Positions 6,890-59,626 of a DNA stretch of 64,000 nt are shown here, piece by piece; position 1 is the stretch's first letter, and each line of letters opens with the position of its first letter. This DNA is from Vulcanimicrobiota bacterium. Its GTDB lineage: Bacteria > Vulcanimicrobiota > Xenobia > Xenobiales > JADMJV01. Under the pieces are notes generated by a model that saw only the letters and a list, made by a program, of their open reading frames with translations, did no database searches and was not told the origin of the DNA. The stretch lies in contig JAHBVR010000024.1 in assembly GCA_019637395.1 (NCBI GenBank), forward strand, positions 1 to 64,000, given 5' to 3'. The translations under genes and the position numbers were made by a program.

Positions 6890-7223
6890 GCTTGAGCGCC
6901 TCGCGTCCCAGCAAGAGCCAGCCGGCGATCATGGCCAGTCCTCCCAGCGGCGTGATGGCTCCCAGCCAGCGCAGGCCGGTCAGGCAGAGCAGATAGAGGC
7001 TTCCCGAGAAAAGCAGCCAACCCAGGGCCAGGAACCACACCGGCCTGTGCGAGCCCTTTTGCAGGCAGCCCAGTTGGATACCGAAGGCCGCGTACATCTG
7101 ATAGCGCACGGCCGTCTCCCAGGTGTTGAGAAGCTCGGGGCTGAGGCTGCCCTTGAGAGCGTGGGCGCCAAAAGCTCCCAGGGCGATGCCCAGGGCCGCC
7201 AGCAAAAAACCAAAAGCCCTCAT
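6882..7223 (-). CDS. DUF423 family small membrane protein
   Basis: A 113-aa protein with four hydrophobic helices and the family signature near the N-terminus (LGAFGAHALKGSLSPELLNTWETA). Members are widespread inner-membrane proteins of unknown function. The ATG overlaps the upstream stop as TGATG, and the 3' end overlaps the deacetylase start by 8 nt, so all three genes are probably translated from one mRNA. No catalytic residues can be pointed out. Confidence 0.88.
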   Translation of the reverse strand: MRAFGFLLAALGIALGAFGAHALKGSLSPELLNTWETAVRYQMYAAFGIQLGCLQKGSHRPVWFLALGWLLFSGSLYLLCLTGLRWLGAITPLGGLAMIAGWLLLGREALKHE

Positions 7224-8506
7224 CAGTCGCGACGGCCGAAGAGGCTTCCCCAGCCTTTGGGACGTTCACCCGGACCGGGCGGGGGAGGCGCCTGCTGCTG
7301 TTGATGGTCACTCATCTGCTTGGCCGCCACCTGAGCGGCCAGCTGACCCCACTCGTCCTTCAGGCGTTCGTGGCGTTGCTGCAGCTCATAATGGCTGCGC
7401 TGGACGGCGTCGAGTTTGGAGCGCAGCTCGCCGATTTCCGCATAGGTCTGATTGACCAGCTCGTTCTTTTCGGCCATTTCCGCCTGGGCTTCGGCCAGCC
7501 GTTCCACCAACCGCCGTGATTCTTCCGGGCTGGTGCCGGTGGCGCCGCTGCCGGCCATTTGTAGTTTGTAAGTCAGGCTGGTGACTTGCTCGCGCAAGCG
7601 GCGAATCTCATCGTCGCGTTCGCGCAAGACCTTTTCATGGTCTCCGCCGCTCTGCTCCAGCTCGCGTTTTTGTTGCTCCCACGATTCTTGCATGCTGGTC
7701 AGACGATCGATCTCGCCTTGCAGGGAGCGGTTTTCCAGGCTCCAGCGGGCCCGTTCGGCGTCCATGGCCAGGCTGGAAGACTGCAGTTCTTCGATTTCCG
7801 CGCGCAGACGTTCTGCGTGGTCGGCAGCTTCCTGGCGCAGTTGGCGCTCCAGGGCGACTTCTCTGGAGAGGCGCTGGAGCAGTTGCTGAGTTCCGTCATC
7901 GTGCTGCTGCGCCTGGCGGTTCATTTGCTCCAGGTCGTGGCGGGCGCCTTCTGACTCCTGCAGGCGCTTTTCCAGCTCGCGCCGGGCGGCTTCCAGCTCC
8001 TGCCGGAGGCGCTCCGATTCTTCCAGGCGCTGGCGGAATTCTTCGCGAGCCAGGTCCTGATGCCGGAGCTGCCCTTCCAATTCCAGAATGCGTTGTTCCA
8101 GGACTTCAATTTCATAGGGATGGCTGACCGGCTCCGCGACGGCGGCCGGAATGGGCCGAAATTGCTCCATGGCGGCACCGATGGCCGATTTGATCTCCTG
8201 GTGCAAGATTTCCAGGGTAAAGTCGCTGGCGCGCCGGCCCATGCGCCGGCGGCGGTCCCGTTCCCCCGCAAAGGTATCGGGATTCTTCTCGCTGCGCGGG
8301 GGCAGGACCCGGGGGCGTTGGACTGGTGCGGCCTCTTCCGCGGAGGGGGGGGAGTGGCGCAGACGGTCTACCTCTGAGGGGCGCAGCAGATAGTCGCCAC
8401 CACGGCGTGTGGCGCGCGCCAGACCGCGTTTGATCCAGGAACGCAATTGTCCATCGCTCACACCGAGTTGCTCGGCGCTTTCCTCGAGGCTGAGAAAGTC
8501 AGACAT
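7223..8506 (-). CDS. HTH-domain protein with long coiled coil
   Basis: The first 50 residues form an excisionase/MerR-type DNA-binding domain (LSLEESAEQLGVSDGQLRSWIKRGL, then YLLRPSEVDRLR). A Pro-rich linker and a basic RRRRMGRRASDFTLEI segment follow. From about residue 125 to 395 the protein is almost continuous Glu/Arg/Gln-rich coiled coil, and it ends in a short Pro/Gly tail. Total length is 427 aa. It is the first gene of the leftward operon and may be a regulator or a nucleoid/cell-structure protein. No specific family is recognised. Confidence 0.75.
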   Translation of the reverse strand: MSDFLSLEESAEQLGVSDGQLRSWIKRGLARATRRGGDYLLRPSEVDRLRHSPPSAEEAAPVQRPRVLPPRSEKNPDTFAGERDRRRRMGRRASDFTLEILHQEIKSAIGAAMEQFRPIPAAVAEPVSHPYEIEVLEQRILELEGQLRHQDLAREEFRQRLEESERLRQELEAARRELEKRLQESEGARHDLEQMNRQAQQHDDGTQQLLQRLSREVALERQLRQEAADHAERLRAEIEELQSSSLAMDAERARWSLENRSLQGEIDRLTSMQESWEQQKRELEQSGGDHEKVLRERDDEIRRLREQVTSLTYKLQMAGSGATGTSPEESRRLVERLAEAQAEMAEKNELVNQTYAEIGELRSKLDAVQRSHYELQQRHERLKDEWGQLAAQVAAKQMSDHQQQQAPPPPGPGERPKGWGSLFGRRD

Positions 8507-8589: not shown

Positions 8590-9069
8590 ATGAAGAAGAC
8601 TTTGGCACTCTGCTTATTGACGTTGCTGTGCGGATGTTCGCAGCCCGCCCCGCCCGCGGCTTCGGGCACACCGGTGGCAGCCACGCCGGTCACTCAAGAC
8701 TTTTCCACCTTGACGGGTAAGACCGTCAAAGATTTTACCATCGCTCCTTTTGGCGGACTGAGTAAGGACCTGTCCACGCTGGTGGGCGCCAAGTTGGAGG
8801 CGGGCAAAGGGGCTTATGTTCCTTTTATCGAGCCCAGTTCCGGCAACAAATTCGTAGTTGCTTTCATACCCGGGGCGGACCCGGCCGAGGTCGACTCGCG
8901 CGCCGCCGGCCCCTTGAAAGTTTCCGGCCAGTTCAAGTCTATCGAGGACGGTGCGCTGGCCAAGTCTTTGGAAGGTAAGCTGGGGGGCAGCCTGTTCCAA
9001 CAGGACGGCAAGCCGGTCTATTTATTGCTGGACAGCGATCCCTGGCCCGCTCCGAAGGGAACCCCCTAG
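8590..9069 (+). CDS. Putative lipoprotein
   Basis: The 159-aa product starts with a type II signal peptide (MKKTLALCLLTLLCGCSQ; probable lipidated Cys at 16) followed by a Pro/Ala linker. The mature part repeats a Lys/Thr-rich TLTGKTVKDF / STLVGAKLEAGKG pattern and ends in hydrophobic strands (KPVYLLLDSDPW). No known family is recognised. Its stop codon (9067-9069) directly abuts the GTG of the FlhA_C-like gene, so the two are co-transcribed and probably co-translated. It is divergent from the HTH/coiled-coil gene. Confidence 0.75.
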   Translation: MKKTLALCLLTLLCGCSQPAPPAASGTPVAATPVTQDFSTLTGKTVKDFTIAPFGGLSKDLSTLVGAKLEAGKGAYVPFIEPSSGNKFVVAFIPGADPAEVDSRAAGPLKVSGQFKSIEDGALAKSLEGKLGGSLFQQDGKPVYLLLDSDPWPAPKGTP

Positions 9070-10377
9070 GTGGCCAGAAACCGAGCCGAAGAGGAGCTGC
9101 AGGAACTTCACGTTTTGCGCGTGGGGGAGGTGTTCGAGCCGTTTGCGCCCTGGCGCCGGAACGAACAGGGTAAGCAGGTCTACATCAAGCTGTCTCGCAA
9201 CGAGGAGGTTTCTTACCTCTACGTGGGCTCTCAGTTAAGTGTGCGGGCTGAGTTGCAACAGGCTCTGATGCGGCTGGTCAATGACGGCTGGATGGTCGAA
9301 GGGGAGGTCGTCGTCCAATTCGACGGCCGCAGCGAGCCCGGCACCGATCCTTATGTCTACCGTGAGCCTTTGATGCTCGAGTTGGGTAAGGCTTTATTGC
9401 CTCTGGTCGATCCTCAAAACGGCTCCCCGCTGGTGCCCAAGGTGGAGCAGATTCGTGAAGAGGTCGCCCGCGAGGTCGGCCTGGTCATTCCGCCGTTGCG
9501 GATTTCCGACAATCTGCAATTGGAAAATCAGTATTTGCTGCGCATCAAAGATGCCCCGGTAGCGGTGGGCGAAGTCTACCTGGATCGCATGATGGTGCTG
9601 GGAAATCTGGATCTTTTGGGACAATTGGAGGGCGGCATCACCCAGGACCCGGTGCACCGCCTGCCGGCCAAGTGGATTCAGGGTGAACTCAAGGAAAAGG
9701 CGGAGAATTTGGGCTGTCCCGTGCTCGGTCCGCTGGCCGTCATGGTGGCCCACTTGAAGGGCCTGATTATGGGCGCCTGTCCAGAGTTGCTGGGTTTGCA
9801 GGAAACTTACGATCTCATTCATCGACTGCGCAGCTCGCACCCGGTAGTGGTCGAGGAATTCCTCAATGACCGCCGCCTGTTGCGGCGGGTTCGCAAAGTT
9901 CTTCAGGGTTTGCTGGAGCAGCGCGTGGCCATTCGCGATCTGGTGACCATTATGGAGATCTGTGGCGACCATGTCGACCTTCTTGATAACGTCGAAGAGG
10001 TGACCGAGCGCTGCCGGGTGGCTCTGGCCCGCCAGATCTGCGCTTCGGTGGTAGACCGCGAAGGCGGCCTGCGGGTGCTGGCGCTGGGCCCGGTGGCCGA
10101 GCAGGCCATCCGCGAAAGCTTGCTGAGCGGCAAAAATTGGAGTCATGACCAGGTGGAGCAATTGGAGCGAGCGGTGCGCAAGGCGCGCGACGAACACGAT
10201 CATCCACCGGTTTTGATCACCGATCCTCCGACCCGGCGGGTAGTCCAGCGTTGGCTCCAGCATGCGCTACCGGATTTGACCATTTTGTCGACCGAAGAAT
10301 TGGTGGCCGGTTTCAAGGTGGAGGTGGCCGCCATGGTGGAGCTGCACTCCGCTCCCACTCCCTCGGGAGTGGCCTGA
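9070..10377 (+). CDS. Soluble protein homologous to the FlhA/SctV cytoplasmic domain
   Basis: In flagella and type III secretion, FlhA/SctV forms the nonameric export gate: an N-terminal membrane domain plus a cytoplasmic domain that docks chaperones and substrates. This 435-aa protein matches only the cytoplasmic part. Visible matches are LGKALLPLVDPQNG (about 105-118), EVGLVIPPLRISDNLQL (135-151), DPVHRLPAKWI (193-203), VMVAHLKGLI (224-233), LLEQRVAIRDLVTIME (281-296) and the terminal PTRRVVQRWLQHALPDL and LSTEELV. Residues 1-95 are a distinct N-terminal domain with no membrane helix. No flagellar or secretion genes are nearby. It begins with GTG right after the lipoprotein stop. Function unknown; a scaffold or decoy role is only inference. 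Confidence 0.75.
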   Translation: MARNRAEEELQELHVLRVGEVFEPFAPWRRNEQGKQVYIKLSRNEEVSYLYVGSQLSVRAELQQALMRLVNDGWMVEGEVVVQFDGRSEPGTDPYVYREPLMLELGKALLPLVDPQNGSPLVPKVEQIREEVAREVGLVIPPLRISDNLQLENQYLLRIKDAPVAVGEVYLDRMMVLGNLDLLGQLEGGITQDPVHRLPAKWIQGELKEKAENLGCPVLGPLAVMVAHLKGLIMGACPELLGLQETYDLIHRLRSSHPVVVEEFLNDRRLLRRVRKVLQGLLEQRVAIRDLVTIMEICGDHVDLLDNVEEVTERCRVALARQICASVVDREGGLRVLALGPVAEQAIRESLLSGKNWSHDQVEQLERAVRKARDEHDHPPVLITDPPTRRVVQRWLQHALPDLTILSTEELVAGFKVEVAAMVELHSAPTPSGVA

Positions 10378-10414
10378 GGCGCAACCTTTCCCGGGGTGGC
10401 CGGTTAGACGGCCT

Positions 10415-12145
<1,731 letters not shown>

Positions 12146-12154
12146 CGAGAATTT

Positions 12155-13396
12155 ATGTGGAGTCGTCGCGCTTTTCTACGCACCAGCGGATTATCGGTAT
12201 TCGGTTTGACCCTGGGTGGAGTGCCTGGTTTTCTGACGCGCGCGGCCCACGCCGCTCCCGGCGGTATCCAGGCCAGGCGCCCCATCCTGGTGACGATTTT
12301 TCAGCGGGGAGCCATGGACGGCTTGATGGCGGTGCAACCGCTGGCTGACAAGGATTTGGCCCAGTTGCGGCCGGGATTGATGTTGCCTCCCGGTGGTGAG
12401 AACGGCTTGATTCAGCTGGACGGCCGCTTCGGCATTCACCCGCGCGGCGGTGCCCTGGCCGATCTTTACAAGCAGGGCCGGCTGGCGGTCGTGCATGGGA
12501 TAGGATCACCCGAGAAGAATCGCTCTCACTTTGACGCTCAGGACTACATGGAGACGGGCACACCCGGTGTCAAGAGCACTCAAAGCGGCTGGTTGAACCG
12601 GGCGGTGGGCCTGACCGGCCACGAGCATTCGGCTTATCAGGCGGTGGCCATGACTTCGAGCATGCCGCGTTCCTTGTCGGGCAACATTCCGGCCCTGGCC
12701 GTCGGCAATTTGGAGGAATTCCAGGTGCGCGCCGGAGCCGGTGCCGATTCCTTGGAAAGCCTGTATGCCCAGGCTACCGGTGGTAAGACCGGGCAGTTGT
12801 TATCCAAGCGCGGCACCGAGGCCTTTGAGGCTACCAGAGTTCTTTCGCCCGATAATATTCGTAGTTATCGCCCTGCTAACGGGGCTGTTTACCCGGCCGG
12901 TGTGCTGGCTCGCGGATTGCGCCAGGTGGCTCAGTTGATCAAGACCGAAGTGGGGCTGGAAGTGGCTTTCGTGGAGAGCAACGGCTGGGACACCCATGTG
13001 GCCCAGGGTACGAGTCAGGGGAACTTTGCTCGACTTTTTGGTGAACTATCGAATTCGATCGCGGCTTTCTGGAAGGACCTGGGTCCGGATTACCAGCAAC
13101 GAGTCACCATCATGACCATGACCGAGTTCGGCCGAACCGTTCATCAGAACGGCTCCAACGGCACCGACCATGGCCGCGGATCCTGCATGTTCGTGCTCGG
13201 CAATGACGTCAAGGGTGGCAAGGTTTACGGCAATGTAGGCGCTTTCGCCAAAGAGGCCCTGGAGGACGGCCGCGACTTGCCCGTCAGCACCGACTTTCGC
13301 TCGCTTTTCTCCAACGTGGCCACCGGCCACCTCAAACTGGCCAGCGGCGGCGACCTCTTCCCCGGCTGGCAGGGACCCTCCCTCAGCGTGGTCTAG
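12155..13396 (+). CDS. DUF1501 domain protein with Tat-like signal
   Basis: A 413-aa partner of the preceding DUF1800 protein. The N-terminus MWSRRAFLRTSGLSVFGLTLGG resembles a twin-arginine signal (RRAFLR). Family features are TIFQRGAMDGLMAVQPLAD, IGSPEKNRSHFDAQDYMETG, ESNGWDTHVAQG and the C-terminal TMTEFGRTVHQNGSNGTDHGRG, which resembles the alkaline phosphatase/sulfatase fold with possible metal ligands in GTDHG. A GGAGG ribosome binding site lies 12 nt upstream. Export folded through Tat suggests a cofactor or metal, but the substrate is unknown. Confidence 0.92.
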   Translation: MWSRRAFLRTSGLSVFGLTLGGVPGFLTRAAHAAPGGIQARRPILVTIFQRGAMDGLMAVQPLADKDLAQLRPGLMLPPGGENGLIQLDGRFGIHPRGGALADLYKQGRLAVVHGIGSPEKNRSHFDAQDYMETGTPGVKSTQSGWLNRAVGLTGHEHSAYQAVAMTSSMPRSLSGNIPALAVGNLEEFQVRAGAGADSLESLYAQATGGKTGQLLSKRGTEAFEATRVLSPDNIRSYRPANGAVYPAGVLARGLRQVAQLIKTEVGLEVAFVESNGWDTHVAQGTSQGNFARLFGELSNSIAAFWKDLGPDYQQRVTIMTMTEFGRTVHQNGSNGTDHGRGSCMFVLGNDVKGGKVYGNVGAFAKEALEDGRDLPVSTDFRSLFSNVATGHLKLASGGDLFPGWQGPSLSVV

Positions 13397-13400
13397 GGGC

Positions 13401-13426
13401 AAAAAAAGACCCTCTTGCGAGGGTCT
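13401..13426 (-). terminator. Rho-independent terminator of the phasin-like gene
   Basis: AGACCCTC/GAGGGTCT stem (13407-13426) with a 4-nt loop, followed on the minus strand by seven T (13407-13401). It is oriented for the gene ending at 13492 and may also slow read-through from the DUF1501 gene ending at 13396. Confidence 0.8.
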
Positions 13427-13491
13427 GGCTACGTGACGGGTGGGACTTCCGTAGAGGTCCCGGGGTTGGGTCATGCGATTGGGAAGAAAAC

Positions 13492-13815
13492 TTACTGCTT
13501 GCTGAATTGGGCGACTTGCTTGTTGAGTTGTTCGACCGAGGCTTTGCTGGCCTGCTGGTAGCTCTGCACCTGGAAGGAGAGCAGCTTGTCGAACAGATCG
13601 GCGAAGAGGCGGGTGGACTGCTTGATTTGCTCGCCGGCCTGCTCGATGAGCTTGACGCTCTCTTCGCGGTTTTTCTTGTTGAATTCGATGATCTGAGCGG
13701 CGGTCTTCTCGCCTTGCTCGGCCACTTTCACCCAGTTGTGCAGCGCCTTGACGCTCTGGTCGAGGATCAGCTCGCTGACTTGGAAGGGGTTGACGGGAAA
13801 TTTAATCTGGCTCAT
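13492..13815 (-). CDS. Phasin-like protein
   Basis: A 107-aa all-helical protein (MSQIKFPVNPFQVSELIL...). The body resembles phasin-family proteins that coat polyhydroxyalkanoate granules: SVKALHNWVKVAEQGEKTA, then Asn/Lys/Glu-rich amphipathic helices. The ATG at 13815 has an AAAGGA site upstream; the frame stays open further upstream, but the extra sequence is Arg/Pro-rich and not protein-like. It is monocistronic with its own terminator. No PHA synthase lies in the window, so a granule role is inferred from family resemblance only. Confidence 0.65.
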   Translation of the reverse strand: MSQIKFPVNPFQVSELILDQSVKALHNWVKVAEQGEKTAAQIIEFNKKNREESVKLIEQAGEQIKQSTRLFADLFDKLLSFQVQSYQQASKASVEQLNKQVAQFSKQ

Positions 13816-13966
13816 TTTCGTGTGTCCTTTGCGTTGTCGATGGACGGACAATAGACGGGACCTGTTGCACTTTCGCTGCGCAACCGTTTTGCAATCGTAA
13901 CACCTTGGTCCGCGGGAGATTCGAGGCTTTTTGCAGAAGGCAGGGGAAACAAAGGAGGTCGGAGCG

Positions 13967-14506
13967 GTGAAAGTACACGACGGTGGCTCGGTCCAATGGC
14001 AACCTGGTCGGAACCAGGGCGTTCGCAGGGAATCTTCTGATGTGCCTAAGGAGACGTTCGTCTCCGGTGGAAATGACTGGGCTCCGGTTAAGCCCAACGT
14101 TACTGCGGCAGTCAGCCACAAGCCCTCGGCCTTGCGGAATTTCACCGGCGCTATGACACTGGCTCTGGGATTGGCTCTGACCCTGGGCGCCACCGGCTGC
14201 GCTTCGGTGGCTACCGCCCAGGCGGCTGAAAAGACCCCGATCGTGCAGACCCAGACCAGGCCGGCTCAGCAAGATAGCACCAAAGCAAGCGCCTCCTATC
14301 AAATCGGCAAAGGCCTCCATGAGATCGGTAAGGGCACCAAAGAAGCTGCCCGGCCCGCCCTCGACAAAGGCAAAGAAGTTGGCAAAGAGATTGGTAAGGC
14401 CGGCAAAGAGGTCGGGCAAGAAATCGGCAAAGCCGGCAAAAAATTTGGGTTGGGTGTGGCCAAGGAAGCCAAATCTTTTTGGAAAGGCCTTACCGGTAAA
14501 GAATAG
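13967..14506 (+). CDS. Putative membrane-associated protein with Lys/Gly/Glu repeat tail
   Basis: GTG start at 13967, preceded by an AAAGGAGG site 8 nt away, giving 179 aa. About 60 polar residues precede a hydrophobic segment with a lipobox-like end (MTLALGLALTLGATGCAS). After that comes a repetitive amphipathic tail built from GKEVGKEIGKAGKEVG-type units. A second start at 14153 (ATG) would give a conventional lipoprotein signal, but its ribosome binding site is weak. The tail resembles LEA-like or membrane-surface helices. No family is recognised. It ends one base from the convergent msrB gene. Confidence 0.6.
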   Translation: MKVHDGGSVQWQPGRNQGVRRESSDVPKETFVSGGNDWAPVKPNVTAAVSHKPSALRNFTGAMTLALGLALTLGATGCASVATAQAAEKTPIVQTQTRPAQQDSTKASASYQIGKGLHEIGKGTKEAARPALDKGKEVGKEIGKAGKEVGQEIGKAGKKFGLGVAKEAKSFWKGLTGKE

Positions 14507-56543: not shown

Positions 56544-57888
56544 TCTGATCATCGTGGGCGGCGGCCTGACCGGGCTGACGGCCGCCTACCGCGCTCAGCA
56601 ACGCGGCTGGAAGTTCTTGCTGCTGGAAGCCTCCGAGCGTCTGGGCGGCTCGCTGGAAACGCTGCACTCCGACGGCCTGCTCCAGGAACTGGGCGCGGAA
56701 TCGATGGTCACGGCCAAACCGTGGGGTAAGGATCTCATTCTCGAGTTGGGACTGGGTGACCAACTGGTCAGCCCTCAACCTGAGTTTCACAAAACTCTGA
56801 TCGTGCGTGGCGGCCAACTGGTGCCCATTCCGGAGGGTCTGCGCTTGCTGGCGCCCAGTCAATGGATTCCTTTCCTACGCTCGCCGGCCGTGAGCTGGTT
56901 GGGCAAGCTGCGCATGGGTCTGGAGTTTTTTGTCAAGCCGCGCCAGGATGTTCGCGATGAATCACTGGCTTCTTTCGTGCGCCGGCGCCTGGGCAAAGAG
57001 GCTCTGGAGCGCATTGCCCAGCCGATGGTGGCGGGCATCTACACGGCTGATCCGGAAACGCTCAGTATGCGGGCTACCTTGCCGCAGTTTCTCGAGTACG
57101 AGCGCAAGTACGGCAGTGTCTGCCGGGGCTTGCTGCTCAGTCCGGAGGCGCGCGCCAGCCGGGGTCCACGTTATCATTTATTCAACAGCCTCAAAGGCGG
57201 CTTCGGCCAGTTGATTCAGGCCCTGCGCGCCCGCTTGCCGGACGAAAGCATCCGCTGCGGACGGCCGGTAGGGCACATTCGACCGCTCGAGGACGGCTGG
57301 CAGGTGGACGGGGAAACGGCTCCGCGCTTGTTGCTGGCCGCACCCACCTACGCCATGGCCGACCTGCTGCGCCCTTTCGACGCCCCGGCCGCCAGTTTGC
57401 TGCAGAAGCAGGAGTACCTTTCTTCGGCCACCGTGAATCTTGGTTATCCACTGACCGCCGCCGACGCCGCCACCCGAGGCTACGGTTTTGTCGTGCCGGC
57501 GGTGGAGGGTCGCGACATTTTGGCCTGCACTTTCAGTCACCGCAAATATCCCGAGCGCACTCCTCCCGACATGGCCTTGCTGCGCACTTACGTAGGGGGA
57601 GCCTCTCGGCCCGAGGCCATGGCCTGGAACGATGAGGAGATGATTGCCCGCAGCCACATGGAGCTGTCGCGTTTGCTGAAGATTGGAGAGCCTCCCATAA
57701 GCGCCGTGGTCAAGCGCTATGTACGCGCCATGCCGCTCTATCGGGTGGGTCACCTGGAGTGGTTGAGCACGCTTGAGGATTGCCTGGCGCGTTGGCCGGG
57801 CCTGGGATGGGCCGGCAACGCTTACCGCGGGGTAGGCATCCCCGACTGCGTCCGGTCGGCTAATGAGGCGGTAGCACGCCTGGGCTGA
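56527..57888 (+). CDS. hemG: Oxygen-dependent protoporphyrinogen oxidase (HemG/HemY type)
   Basis: FAD-dependent oxidation in late haem synthesis. 453 aa from GTG at 56527, overlapping hemE by 17 nt. The FAD-binding motif is DLIIVGGGLTGLTAAYRAQQRG, followed by FLLLEASERLGGSLETLHSDGLLQELGAESM. ESLASFVRRRLGKEALERIAQPMVAGIYTADPETLSMRA is the central family region, and LGWAGNAYRGVGIPDCVRSANEAV the C-terminal FAD site. The earlier enzyme HemN/HemF and ferrochelatase are not in the window. In some bacteria, homologues oxidise coproporphyrinogen instead. Confidence 0.92.
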   Translation: MSHSYDLIIVGGGLTGLTAAYRAQQRGWKFLLLEASERLGGSLETLHSDGLLQELGAESMVTAKPWGKDLILELGLGDQLVSPQPEFHKTLIVRGGQLVPIPEGLRLLAPSQWIPFLRSPAVSWLGKLRMGLEFFVKPRQDVRDESLASFVRRRLGKEALERIAQPMVAGIYTADPETLSMRATLPQFLEYERKYGSVCRGLLLSPEARASRGPRYHLFNSLKGGFGQLIQALRARLPDESIRCGRPVGHIRPLEDGWQVDGETAPRLLLAAPTYAMADLLRPFDAPAASLLQKQEYLSSATVNLGYPLTAADAATRGYGFVVPAVEGRDILACTFSHRKYPERTPPDMALLRTYVGGASRPEAMAWNDEEMIARSHMELSRLLKIGEPPISAVVKRYVRAMPLYRVGHLEWLSTLEDCLARWPGLGWAGNAYRGVGIPDCVRSANEAVARLG

Positions 57889-58507
57889 AGGCCGAGGGGC
57901 AGAGGCTGGCCAGGCAGCAATCCGGGCAACGCGGCTTCTTGGCCAGGCAGACGTAGCGTCCGTGCAGAAGCAAACGCGAGGACCCCTGGCTCCAGTCTTT
58001 CTTGGGAAGCAGCTTTTGCAGGTCCTTCTCGACTTCCTCGGCCTCCTGCTTAGCGGTCAGTTGCAGACGCCGGGCCACCCGGCCGACGTGCGTGTCCACG
58101 ATGATACCGGGTTTGCCGAAGCATTCCCCCAAGATCAGATTGGCGGTTTTGCGGCCCACTCCGGGCAGGCTGGTGAGTTCTTCCATCGTCTCAGGCACTG
58201 TGGAGCGAAAGCGTTCCACCAGGTGGCGGCTGCAGGCCTGGATGGATTTGGCCTTGTTGCGGTAGAAGCCGGTAGGCCGGACCACTTCTTCGACTTCCTC
58301 GGGTAGGGCCTGGGCCAGCGCGGTCGGGTCGGGCCAGCGTTGAAAAAGCAGGGGAGTGACCTGGTTGACGCGCTCGTCGGTGCACTGGGCGGAGAGAATG
58401 GTGGCGATAACCAGTTCAAAGGGACTGGAATGCTTCAGCTCGACGGCCGGATTGGGAATGCTGGCCCGTAGCCGTTTGAGTATTTCGCTGGCTCGGTTTT
58501 TACTCAC
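57860..58507 (-). CDS. nth: Endonuclease III
   Basis: DNA glycosylase/AP lyase for oxidised pyrimidines. 215 aa. SPFELVIATILSAQCTDERVNQVTPLLF, the helix-hairpin-helix LPGVGRKTANLIL (catalytic Lys), VDTHVGRVARRL (catalytic Asp) and the 4Fe-4S ligands C-x6-C-x2-C-x5-C in the CLAKKPRCPDC region are all present. The 3' end overlaps the convergent protoporphyrinogen oxidase gene by 29 nt. It starts 3 nt after the FlhA_C-like gene, so they share an mRNA. Confidence 0.96.
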   Translation of the reverse strand: MSKNRASEILKRLRASIPNPAVELKHSSPFELVIATILSAQCTDERVNQVTPLLFQRWPDPTALAQALPEEVEEVVRPTGFYRNKAKSIQACSRHLVERFRSTVPETMEELTSLPGVGRKTANLILGECFGKPGIIVDTHVGRVARRLQLTAKQEAEEVEKDLQKLLPKKDWSQGSSRLLLHGRYVCLAKKPRCPDCCLASLCPSAFSPGVLPPH

Positions 58508-58510
58508 CCG

Positions 58511-59626
58511 CTAGTTCGGCCAGCGGTTGGTAGGATAGGGGAGGTGCGAGTTGGCGGCGCCACTGAATTTTAGCATGGAGTCGAGCGTATCCAGTCGGAT
58601 TTCCGGGGGTTTGTCCTCGAGGGCCAGCACCGTGACCTGCTGACTACCCGAGCGCATCAGTTCGGCCCAGGCACGCCGGTAGCGCGAGGCCACCACGAAG
58701 GTGGGGAAGGCCTGTTGCTCACGGAAAGCGGCCAGACGCGAGTAACCCAGGTGTAGAGCCTGCTGCTTCTGGCCTTCGCCGCCCACCGCCAGAGCCGCCT
58801 GAGTCTCATCGATTTTCCACACCAGCAGTGTTTCCCGGCCGTCGGCGGCCTTCTGGTAAAGCACCGGGGCCAGACGGCGGCGCACAAAGTCGAGCAGCAC
58901 CAGGGGAGCGGTTTTGACCGGTTCGTGCAGGGCTAATTCCAGCAGCACCGCGTCCAGATCGCGAATGGAGACGCGCTCGCGCAAAAGCATGCCCAGGATG
59001 GAACGTAGCTTGGCCTCGGTCAAGCCGGCCTGGCGGGCCTGGCGCCAGGCTTCCTGGGATTCGAGCAAGAGCGCGTCCAGGGGAGAGCGGGCGAAGATCT
59101 CCTGGGCGTGAATGCGGGCTACTTCGGTCAGGTGGGTGGCGATGACGGCTTTGGGCGTAAAGCGCATGTGCAGATCGCTGGGCTCCACCACCTCCTCGTC
59201 GGGAATCCAGATCGAGGGCATGGAGTAAACCGGATCATTGACTGAGGTGCCGGTGGGATAGCCTTGACGCAACGCGGTCAGATGAGGGCCATGAGCGAAA
59301 AAGAGCGTCTGGCGGGGAAAAACCTGGCCGCGCGCGGCCAGATATTCGCCCACCGTAATTTCATAGGAGTTCGCCGGTAGAGTCACTTTGTTGCGGAAGC
59401 GCACCGAAGGTAGATAAAAACCTAGCTCCATGTAGATGTGGCGGCGAATGGACTTGCAAGACTCCAGCAACGCCGCGTTCTCACCTTCGACCAAAGGGAT
59501 CAAGGCGTTGCCCAGCAGAACTTCCACGGTGGAGAGTTTGAGGGGTCCGAACTGTTTGTGAATCTCGTCGGGGTCTTCGGCCAGGGGGTTGACGGCCAGT
59601 TCTTCGGGTTCGCCTGCTTGGTCCAT
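58511..59626 (-). CDS. Second soluble FlhA/SctV cytoplasmic-domain-like protein
   Basis: 371 aa, no membrane helices. Matches to the FlhA cytoplasmic domain in order: LLGNALIPLVEGEN (37-50), YMELGFYLPSVRFRNKV (65-81), NDPVYSMPSIWIPDEEV (130-146), VIATHLTEVARIHAQEIFA (161-179), LRERVSIRDLDAVLLELAL (215-233). From about 255 on it departs from FlhA (ETLLVWKIDETQAALAVGG) and ends in a flexible tail. Unlike the 435-aa relative at 9070, the N-terminal extra domain is short and acidic. It is upstream of nth in a two-gene unit. No other export-apparatus gene is present. Function unknown. Confidence 0.72.
   Translation of the reverse strand: MDQAGEPEELAVNPLAEDPDEIHKQFGPLKLSTVEVLLGNALIPLVEGENAALLESCKSIRRHIYMELGFYLPSVRFRNKVTLPANSYEITVGEYLAARGQVFPRQTLFFAHGPHLTALRQGYPTGTSVNDPVYSMPSIWIPDEEVVEPSDLHMRFTPKAVIATHLTEVARIHAQEIFARSPLDALLLESQEAWRQARQAGLTEAKLRSILGMLLRERVSIRDLDAVLLELALHEPVKTAPLVLLDFVRRRLAPVLYQKAADGRETLLVWKIDETQAALAVGGEGQKQQALHLGYSRLAAFREQQAFPTFVVASRYRRAWAELMRSGSQQVTVLALEDKPPEIRLDTLDSMLKFSGAANSHLPYPTNRWPN

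Follow-up and report, generated by a model that had tools for sequence, protein, structure and literature searches.

The cytoplasmic domains of FlhA and SctV form a nonameric ring that docks chaperones, and that of FlhA, hereafter abbreviated as FlhA_C, is investigated as the ring on the cytosolic side of a secretion gate. The contiguous 64,000 nucleotides of Vulcanimicrobiota DNA analysed here (the window) contain a gene for a protein that firmly belongs to the FlhA_C fold (table 1). The search with the Pfam profile FHIPEP and coverage mapping, which the sequence-only reading of this DNA had proposed as a check, gave a highly significant match (E=1.8e-68; 232 bits against a cut-off of 29.1), in which residues 96-413 align to positions 328-654 of the 657 in the profile. 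This is the complete cytoplasmic half and nothing else, the N-terminal membrane half of FlhA/SctV (profile positions 1-320, with several helices) being absent. Sequence matches in the PDB are exclusively FlhA/SctV cytoplasmic domains, the best E-values being 2.7e-51 for 3mix and 1.7e-39 for Salmonella 7ctn, and an AlphaFold2 model built from 14 orthologues (mean pLDDT 77.9, pTM 0.70) has the FlhA_C structure 6ch2 as its top Foldseek match (E=1.1e-29; TM 0.84 by target length).

Compared with FlhA_C of the flagellar gate, the window protein has the same D1-D4 fold and length and is 30% identical to Salmonella FlhA_C when the two are aligned by structure, but it has neither the membrane half nor the FlhA linker and is encoded outside the flagellar operon; its orthologues add a new N-terminal domain and, in most cases, a C-terminal tail. 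The cytoplasmic domain of SctV (YscV, CdsV, MxiA, InvA) shares this fold with a weaker sequence match (hrcV, E=4.8e-32). The window protein is closer to FlhA than to SctV, from which it also differs in the missing membrane half, the new N-terminal domain and the lack of injectisome genes alongside. Its scores with the NCBIfam equivalogs lie below the cut-offs for both FlhA (236 bits versus 772) and SctV (111 versus 692), in the case of FlhA because the membrane half is missing. With neither a membrane half nor a gate locus, the protein is not a member of the export-gate family.

Table 1. Coordinates of the window gene, its neighbours and other proteins containing FlhA_C. Positions without an L prefix are those of the window.
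Feature	Location	Strand	Remarks
Stand-alone FlhA_C protein	9070..10377	+	GTG start, 435 aa, intact ORF
Novel N-terminal domain	9070..9357	+	residues ~1-96, conserved core 24-87
FlhA/SctV cytoplasmic domain	9355..10308	+	FHIPEP profile positions 328-654
HTH_17/MerR-like head + coiled coil + tail KGWGSLFGRRD	7223..8506	-	divergent neighbour, conserved in f1-f3
Small lipoprotein, lipobox LCGC	8590..9069	+	159 aa; stop codon abuts FlhA_C start
DUF1800 + DUF1501 gene pair	10415..13396	+	downstream; conserved in window genus only
Second stand-alone FlhA_C, without N-domain	58511..59626	-	371 aa; E=2.8e-39, highly diverged
FliG_N + FlhA_C	L010:2925-5522		window genome; over Pfam cut-offs
FliG_N + FlhA_C, relatives	L075:5848-8982; L125:7945-10182; L127:3-3146; L130:7654-9888; L134:2881-5388		over Pfam cut-offs
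FlhB_C + final portion of FlhA_C; membrane parts absent	L015:8530-9840	-	over Pfam cut-offs
AAA+ (ClpX-like) + FlhA_C beside FlhB_C-FlhA_C-DUF6745	L122:5145-10626	-	genome G177, outside phylum
Ankyrin + FlhA_C	L132		over Pfam cut-offs
TPR + FlhA_C	L120		over Pfam cut-offs; L120 and L121 are TPR-FlhA_C proteins of genome G246
Quinolinate phosphoribosyltransferase + FlhA_C	L124:1157-3523	+	genome G275

The 19-residue Kyte-Doolittle mean of the window protein peaks at 1.66 and the protein is therefore without a membrane helix, while the same scan detects six membrane segments in a full-length FlhA from its own genome. Upstream, the lipoprotein gene ends in a stop codon that abuts the start of the FlhA_C gene (...CCCTAG followed by GTG...), which leaves no missing upstream part. 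A frameshift or a lost membrane half was accordingly ruled out, the upstream gene being that of a lipoprotein and the FlhA_C gene being intact in relatives; this agrees with the earlier view that the gene is not a broken FlhA joined to a membrane domain by a frameshift. In the window a single TAG separates the two genes, which share a reading frame. A lipoprotein-FlhA_C fusion produced by stop-codon read-through was also considered and rejected, as the genes of close relatives have a one-base overlap (TAGTG) and the arrangement is not conserved.

The place of the FlhA linker is occupied by the novel N-terminal domain (N-domain), which spans about 95 residues, is kept in all 26 orthologues and is always fused to FlhA_C in the same open frame (26/26). 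Its signature in the alignment is F.PW.RGERGQQ.Y.KL ... LMRL.NDGW.VEGE...SFDG, and the secondary structure predicted by AlphaFold2 is beta-beta-alpha-beta. A profile of the N-domain only finds one copy in each of these 26 genomes and nowhere else among the 149 genomes of the phylum. The N-domain is more constrained than the rest of the protein, with dN/dS of 0.011-0.016 versus 0.030-0.045. Searches for relatives gave no match in Pfam, a best E of 0.9 with the PDB profile and a best E of 0.42 with Foldseek, the latter on a low-confidence model (pLDDT 66). The FlhA_C domain has here been separated from its membrane half and has gained a new domain at its N-terminus. The soluble, stand-alone FlhA_C with an added domain described in the sequence-only reading is borne out by profile coverage, by hydropathy and by the orthologues.

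Orthologues retrieved with the whole-protein profile are present, as a single copy each, in 26 of the 149 genomes of the phylum (Candidatus Eremiobacterota/Vulcanimicrobiota), the same 26 that the N-domain profile retrieves. They occur in 18/18 genomes of families f1-f4, in members of f5, f8, f11, f13 and f14, and in 5/5 genomes of the window genus; a narrow alignment scan gave 13 named loci from Candidatus Eremiobacterota, UBP9 and related MAGs. No relative was found among the viral contigs searched, and carriage by a virus was rejected. A tree built from 90 FlhA_C domains places the orthologues in a single clade (SH-aLRT 100) that is distinct from the flagellar FlhA of the same genomes, and this family evolves several times faster than flagellar FlhA_C. 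The dN/dS among close relatives lies at 0.027-0.040 (about 0.03), indicating strong purifying selection. The window gene encodes a paralogue of the FlhA/SctV cytoplasmic domain that stands alone, is ancient and has been inherited vertically. Genomes of the window genus carry many diverged copies, as would be expected if the gene were a decaying FlhA duplicate; such a view is refuted by the selection just described and by the presence of the gene in every genome of the genus and of f1-f4, and we consider it virtually untenable.

The chaperone-binding dimple of Salmonella FlhA comprises Asp-456, Phe-459 and Thr-490 (PMC8166844). Aligned positions in 21 orthologues are largely kept, with an acidic residue in 21/21, Tyr or Phe in 16/21 and Thr in 16/21; the window copy has Asp-193, His-196 and Ala-227, two of the three being changed. 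After a variable linker, 19 of the 26 orthologues end in a short hydrophobic-basic tail that is GxLGxLxx[KG]- or GF[WF]xx[KR][KR]-like (for example GVLGFLKGG, GLLGLFKK, GFWKTRKKKGE and GFFRPRRKKHE) and that the window genus has lost. In f1-f3 the HTH-coiled-coil protein next door has a conserved C-terminal GW..LF..R, similar to the tail that most FlhA_C orthologues carry, and a loose tail pattern gives 13 matches in the 267 called genes of the loci, all in FlhA_C orthologues or HTH-coiled-coil neighbours. We take the tails of the orthologues to be similar to MinD-type membrane-targeting tails, a likeness that serves as a lead only.

The genome to which the window belongs measures 7.66 Mb and is 97.9% complete; the window itself is part of contig 17. 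No flagellar genes, including FliP, FliQ, FliR and FlhB, lie beside the orthologue in any of the 26 loci, and no injectisome genes were found there either. The absence of an export apparatus claimed in the sequence-only reading thus holds for the locus and fails for the cell, which has FliO, FliP, FliR, FlhB, FlhA and FliQ together in a flagellar gate locus on contig 34. A second full-length FlhA is present on contig 21; with two such genes, one of them in the gate locus, the window gene is not the missing FlhA of a locus elsewhere, in keeping with that reading. The same genome encodes a membrane FlhA with a shrunken, degenerate C-domain (L011:8770-10329, minus strand; contig 1, C1:315249), adjoining the gene for a 1188-aa SecA-like protein (10421-13987, minus strand). 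It also has a second FliP (L019:16895-17689, plus strand; G000 contig 10, C10:109074), away from the flagellar gate locus and 8 kb from an FlhA_C-FliG_N-like protein.

These additional genes would provide partners if an export gate were split and the window protein supplied its cytoplasmic half, paired with the membrane FlhA of degenerate C-domain or with the extra FliP. We disfavour this arrangement as highly improbable, for the gene does not co-localise with a membrane half, and relatives in f3 and f11 (such as G009, G010, G024 and G028) have the orthologue together with one full-length flagellar FlhA, hence no spare membrane half was found in them.

The main rival interpretation is that the protein acts in trans in the flagellar export of its own cell, joining or capping the FlhA_C ring or competing for chaperone-cargo complexes, and so timing or filtering export. 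It draws on the retention of the dimple positions in most orthologues and on the genomes themselves: well-assembled genomes bearing the orthologue have a full-length FlhA, those checked have FliP or FliR, and the flagellar gate is present in every one checked. The incomplete genomes without FliP (G011, G014 and G035) are 69-85% complete and prove nothing. As FlhA is present almost throughout the phylum, co-occurrence does not count against such a helper. It seems rather unlikely that the protein takes part in flagellar export, given that the orthologue is never found in a flagellar locus, that flagellar-type FlhA occurs without it in f6, f7, f10, f12, f15 and f16, that its neighbours are lipoprotein, RNase PH, SIS and TPR genes, and that its sequence evolves several times faster than flagellar FlhA_C.

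A member of the lipoprotein family lies directly upstream in 16/26 orthologue loci (f1-f4), usually with a gap of 0-3 bases, and 10 of these 16 loci played no part in building the lipoprotein profile; the upstream neighbour singled out in the initial reading is therefore a conserved and closely coupled one. RNase PH (rph, PF01138) follows downstream on the same strand, again in 16/26 loci, which are spread over f3, f4, f5, f8, f11, f13 and f14, and in three loci the two genes overlap by 4 bp. The window genus has DUF1800 and DUF1501 in place of RNase PH; these are conserved in this genus only and thus probably lie outside the system. Upstream of the orthologue in f11 there is a SIS-domain-like gene, identified by eye.

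This conservation of operon partners, along with the erosion of the dimple in the window genus, could also reflect a scaffold, structural or regulatory, that serves the housekeeping of RNA or of the cell envelope through its operon with RNase PH or the lipoprotein and that no longer uses the peptide-binding surface of FlhA_C. We regard such a scaffold as improbable, since the dimple positions are conserved elsewhere in the family and no protein domain resembling an RNA or envelope factor was recognised with Pfam, PDB or Foldseek.

The interpretation that we favour, and which might equally well stand or fall, is that the FlhA ring domain has here given rise to a docking or scaffold protein with no part in secretion, working in the same pathway as the lipoprotein and with roles for the tail and the N-domain. 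By analogy with the flagellar ring, the protein would dock partners in the cytoplasm via its FlhA_C surface and possibly assemble into a ring. Client proteins would be held by short helices, as chaperones are by FlhA_C, and would not be pushed through an export gate. The N-domain may confer client or partner specificity, and the hydrophobic-basic tail might bring the protein to the membrane, or to a shared partner, in most lineages. The observed gene order suggests a common pathway with the co-encoded lipoprotein and, in other lineages, co-expression with RNase PH; since the lipoprotein is displayed outside the cytoplasm, its link to the FlhA_C protein must be indirect. What weighs against docking is that client, partner and oligomer are all putative and that two of the three dimple positions are altered in the window copy; the conserved gene order with rph may represent housekeeping synteny.

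FlhA_C-only proteins have undergone a wider expansion, of which no member is as well conserved as the window gene. This contradicts the previous statement that this domain is always tethered to the membrane half: untethered copies are many in the phylum and a few exist outside it. Large genomes hold a dozen or more such further versions. The FHIPEP search gives 14 cytoplasmic-only FlhA matches in the window genome, the second copy in the window among them, and some are fused to FliG_N, FlhB_C, HTH or zinc-finger-like parts. Other FlhA_C-only proteins likewise have no FlhA membrane half, but they do not carry the N-domain. Fusions of FliG_N with FlhA_C are recurrent, being spread over several of the phylum's families, and a number of them have predicted membrane segments; partial matches like L015 (profile ~456-656) are found in many genomes of the phylum, probably representing a second conserved group. 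In the window, a gene for an HhH-GPD DNA glycosylase (57860-58507, minus strand) comes directly after the second stand-alone FlhA_C. Elsewhere, two tandem FlhA_C genes (L013:8826-9893 and 9895-10974, plus strand) encode N-termini that by eye resemble Sec signal peptides, and are possibly exported FlhA_C domains. No shared partner was found among the neighbours of the other FlhA_C paralogues.

Outside the phylum, cytoplasmic-only copies were found in 3 of the 239 genomes sampled, with up to three candidates scored per genome, a rarity to be taken as a rough estimate because the sample is small. One of these genomes, G246, is 97% complete. It encodes FlhA_C-only proteins, and FliP, FliR, FlhB and full FlhA were not found in it; the domain can therefore serve without a gate. 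On the tree the other FlhA_C-only proteins have several separate origins, the placement of fast-evolving paralogues being uncertain because of their long branches. An ancient and conserved soluble FlhA_C, together with these further stand-alone versions, suggests that the domain has jobs unrelated to the flagellum. More tentatively, and with some leaning towards doubt, FlhA_C could serve this phylum and a few others as a docking or ring module of general use that does not depend on export. It would have been repeatedly detached, multiplied and recombined, both with further parts of the flagellar ring (FliG_N, FlhB_C) and with AAA+, TPR, ankyrin, HTH and enzyme domains, pieces of the type III secretion platform thereby building unrelated intracellular machines.

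We found no description of stand-alone FlhA_C proteins in the open-licence papers searched; selection has maintained the protein in its ancient stand-alone state, and the larger expansion is apparently undescribed. If true, a conserved, gate-free FlhA_C under strong selection would mean that the ring domain has a self-sufficient client-docking function, for which the window protein family offers a natural soluble model. The claim that FlhA_C can work in the absence of a gate becomes open to direct testing, the proteins of the gate-free genome G246 being one choice, and the wider expansion, if confirmed, would represent a secretion machine taken apart and reused.
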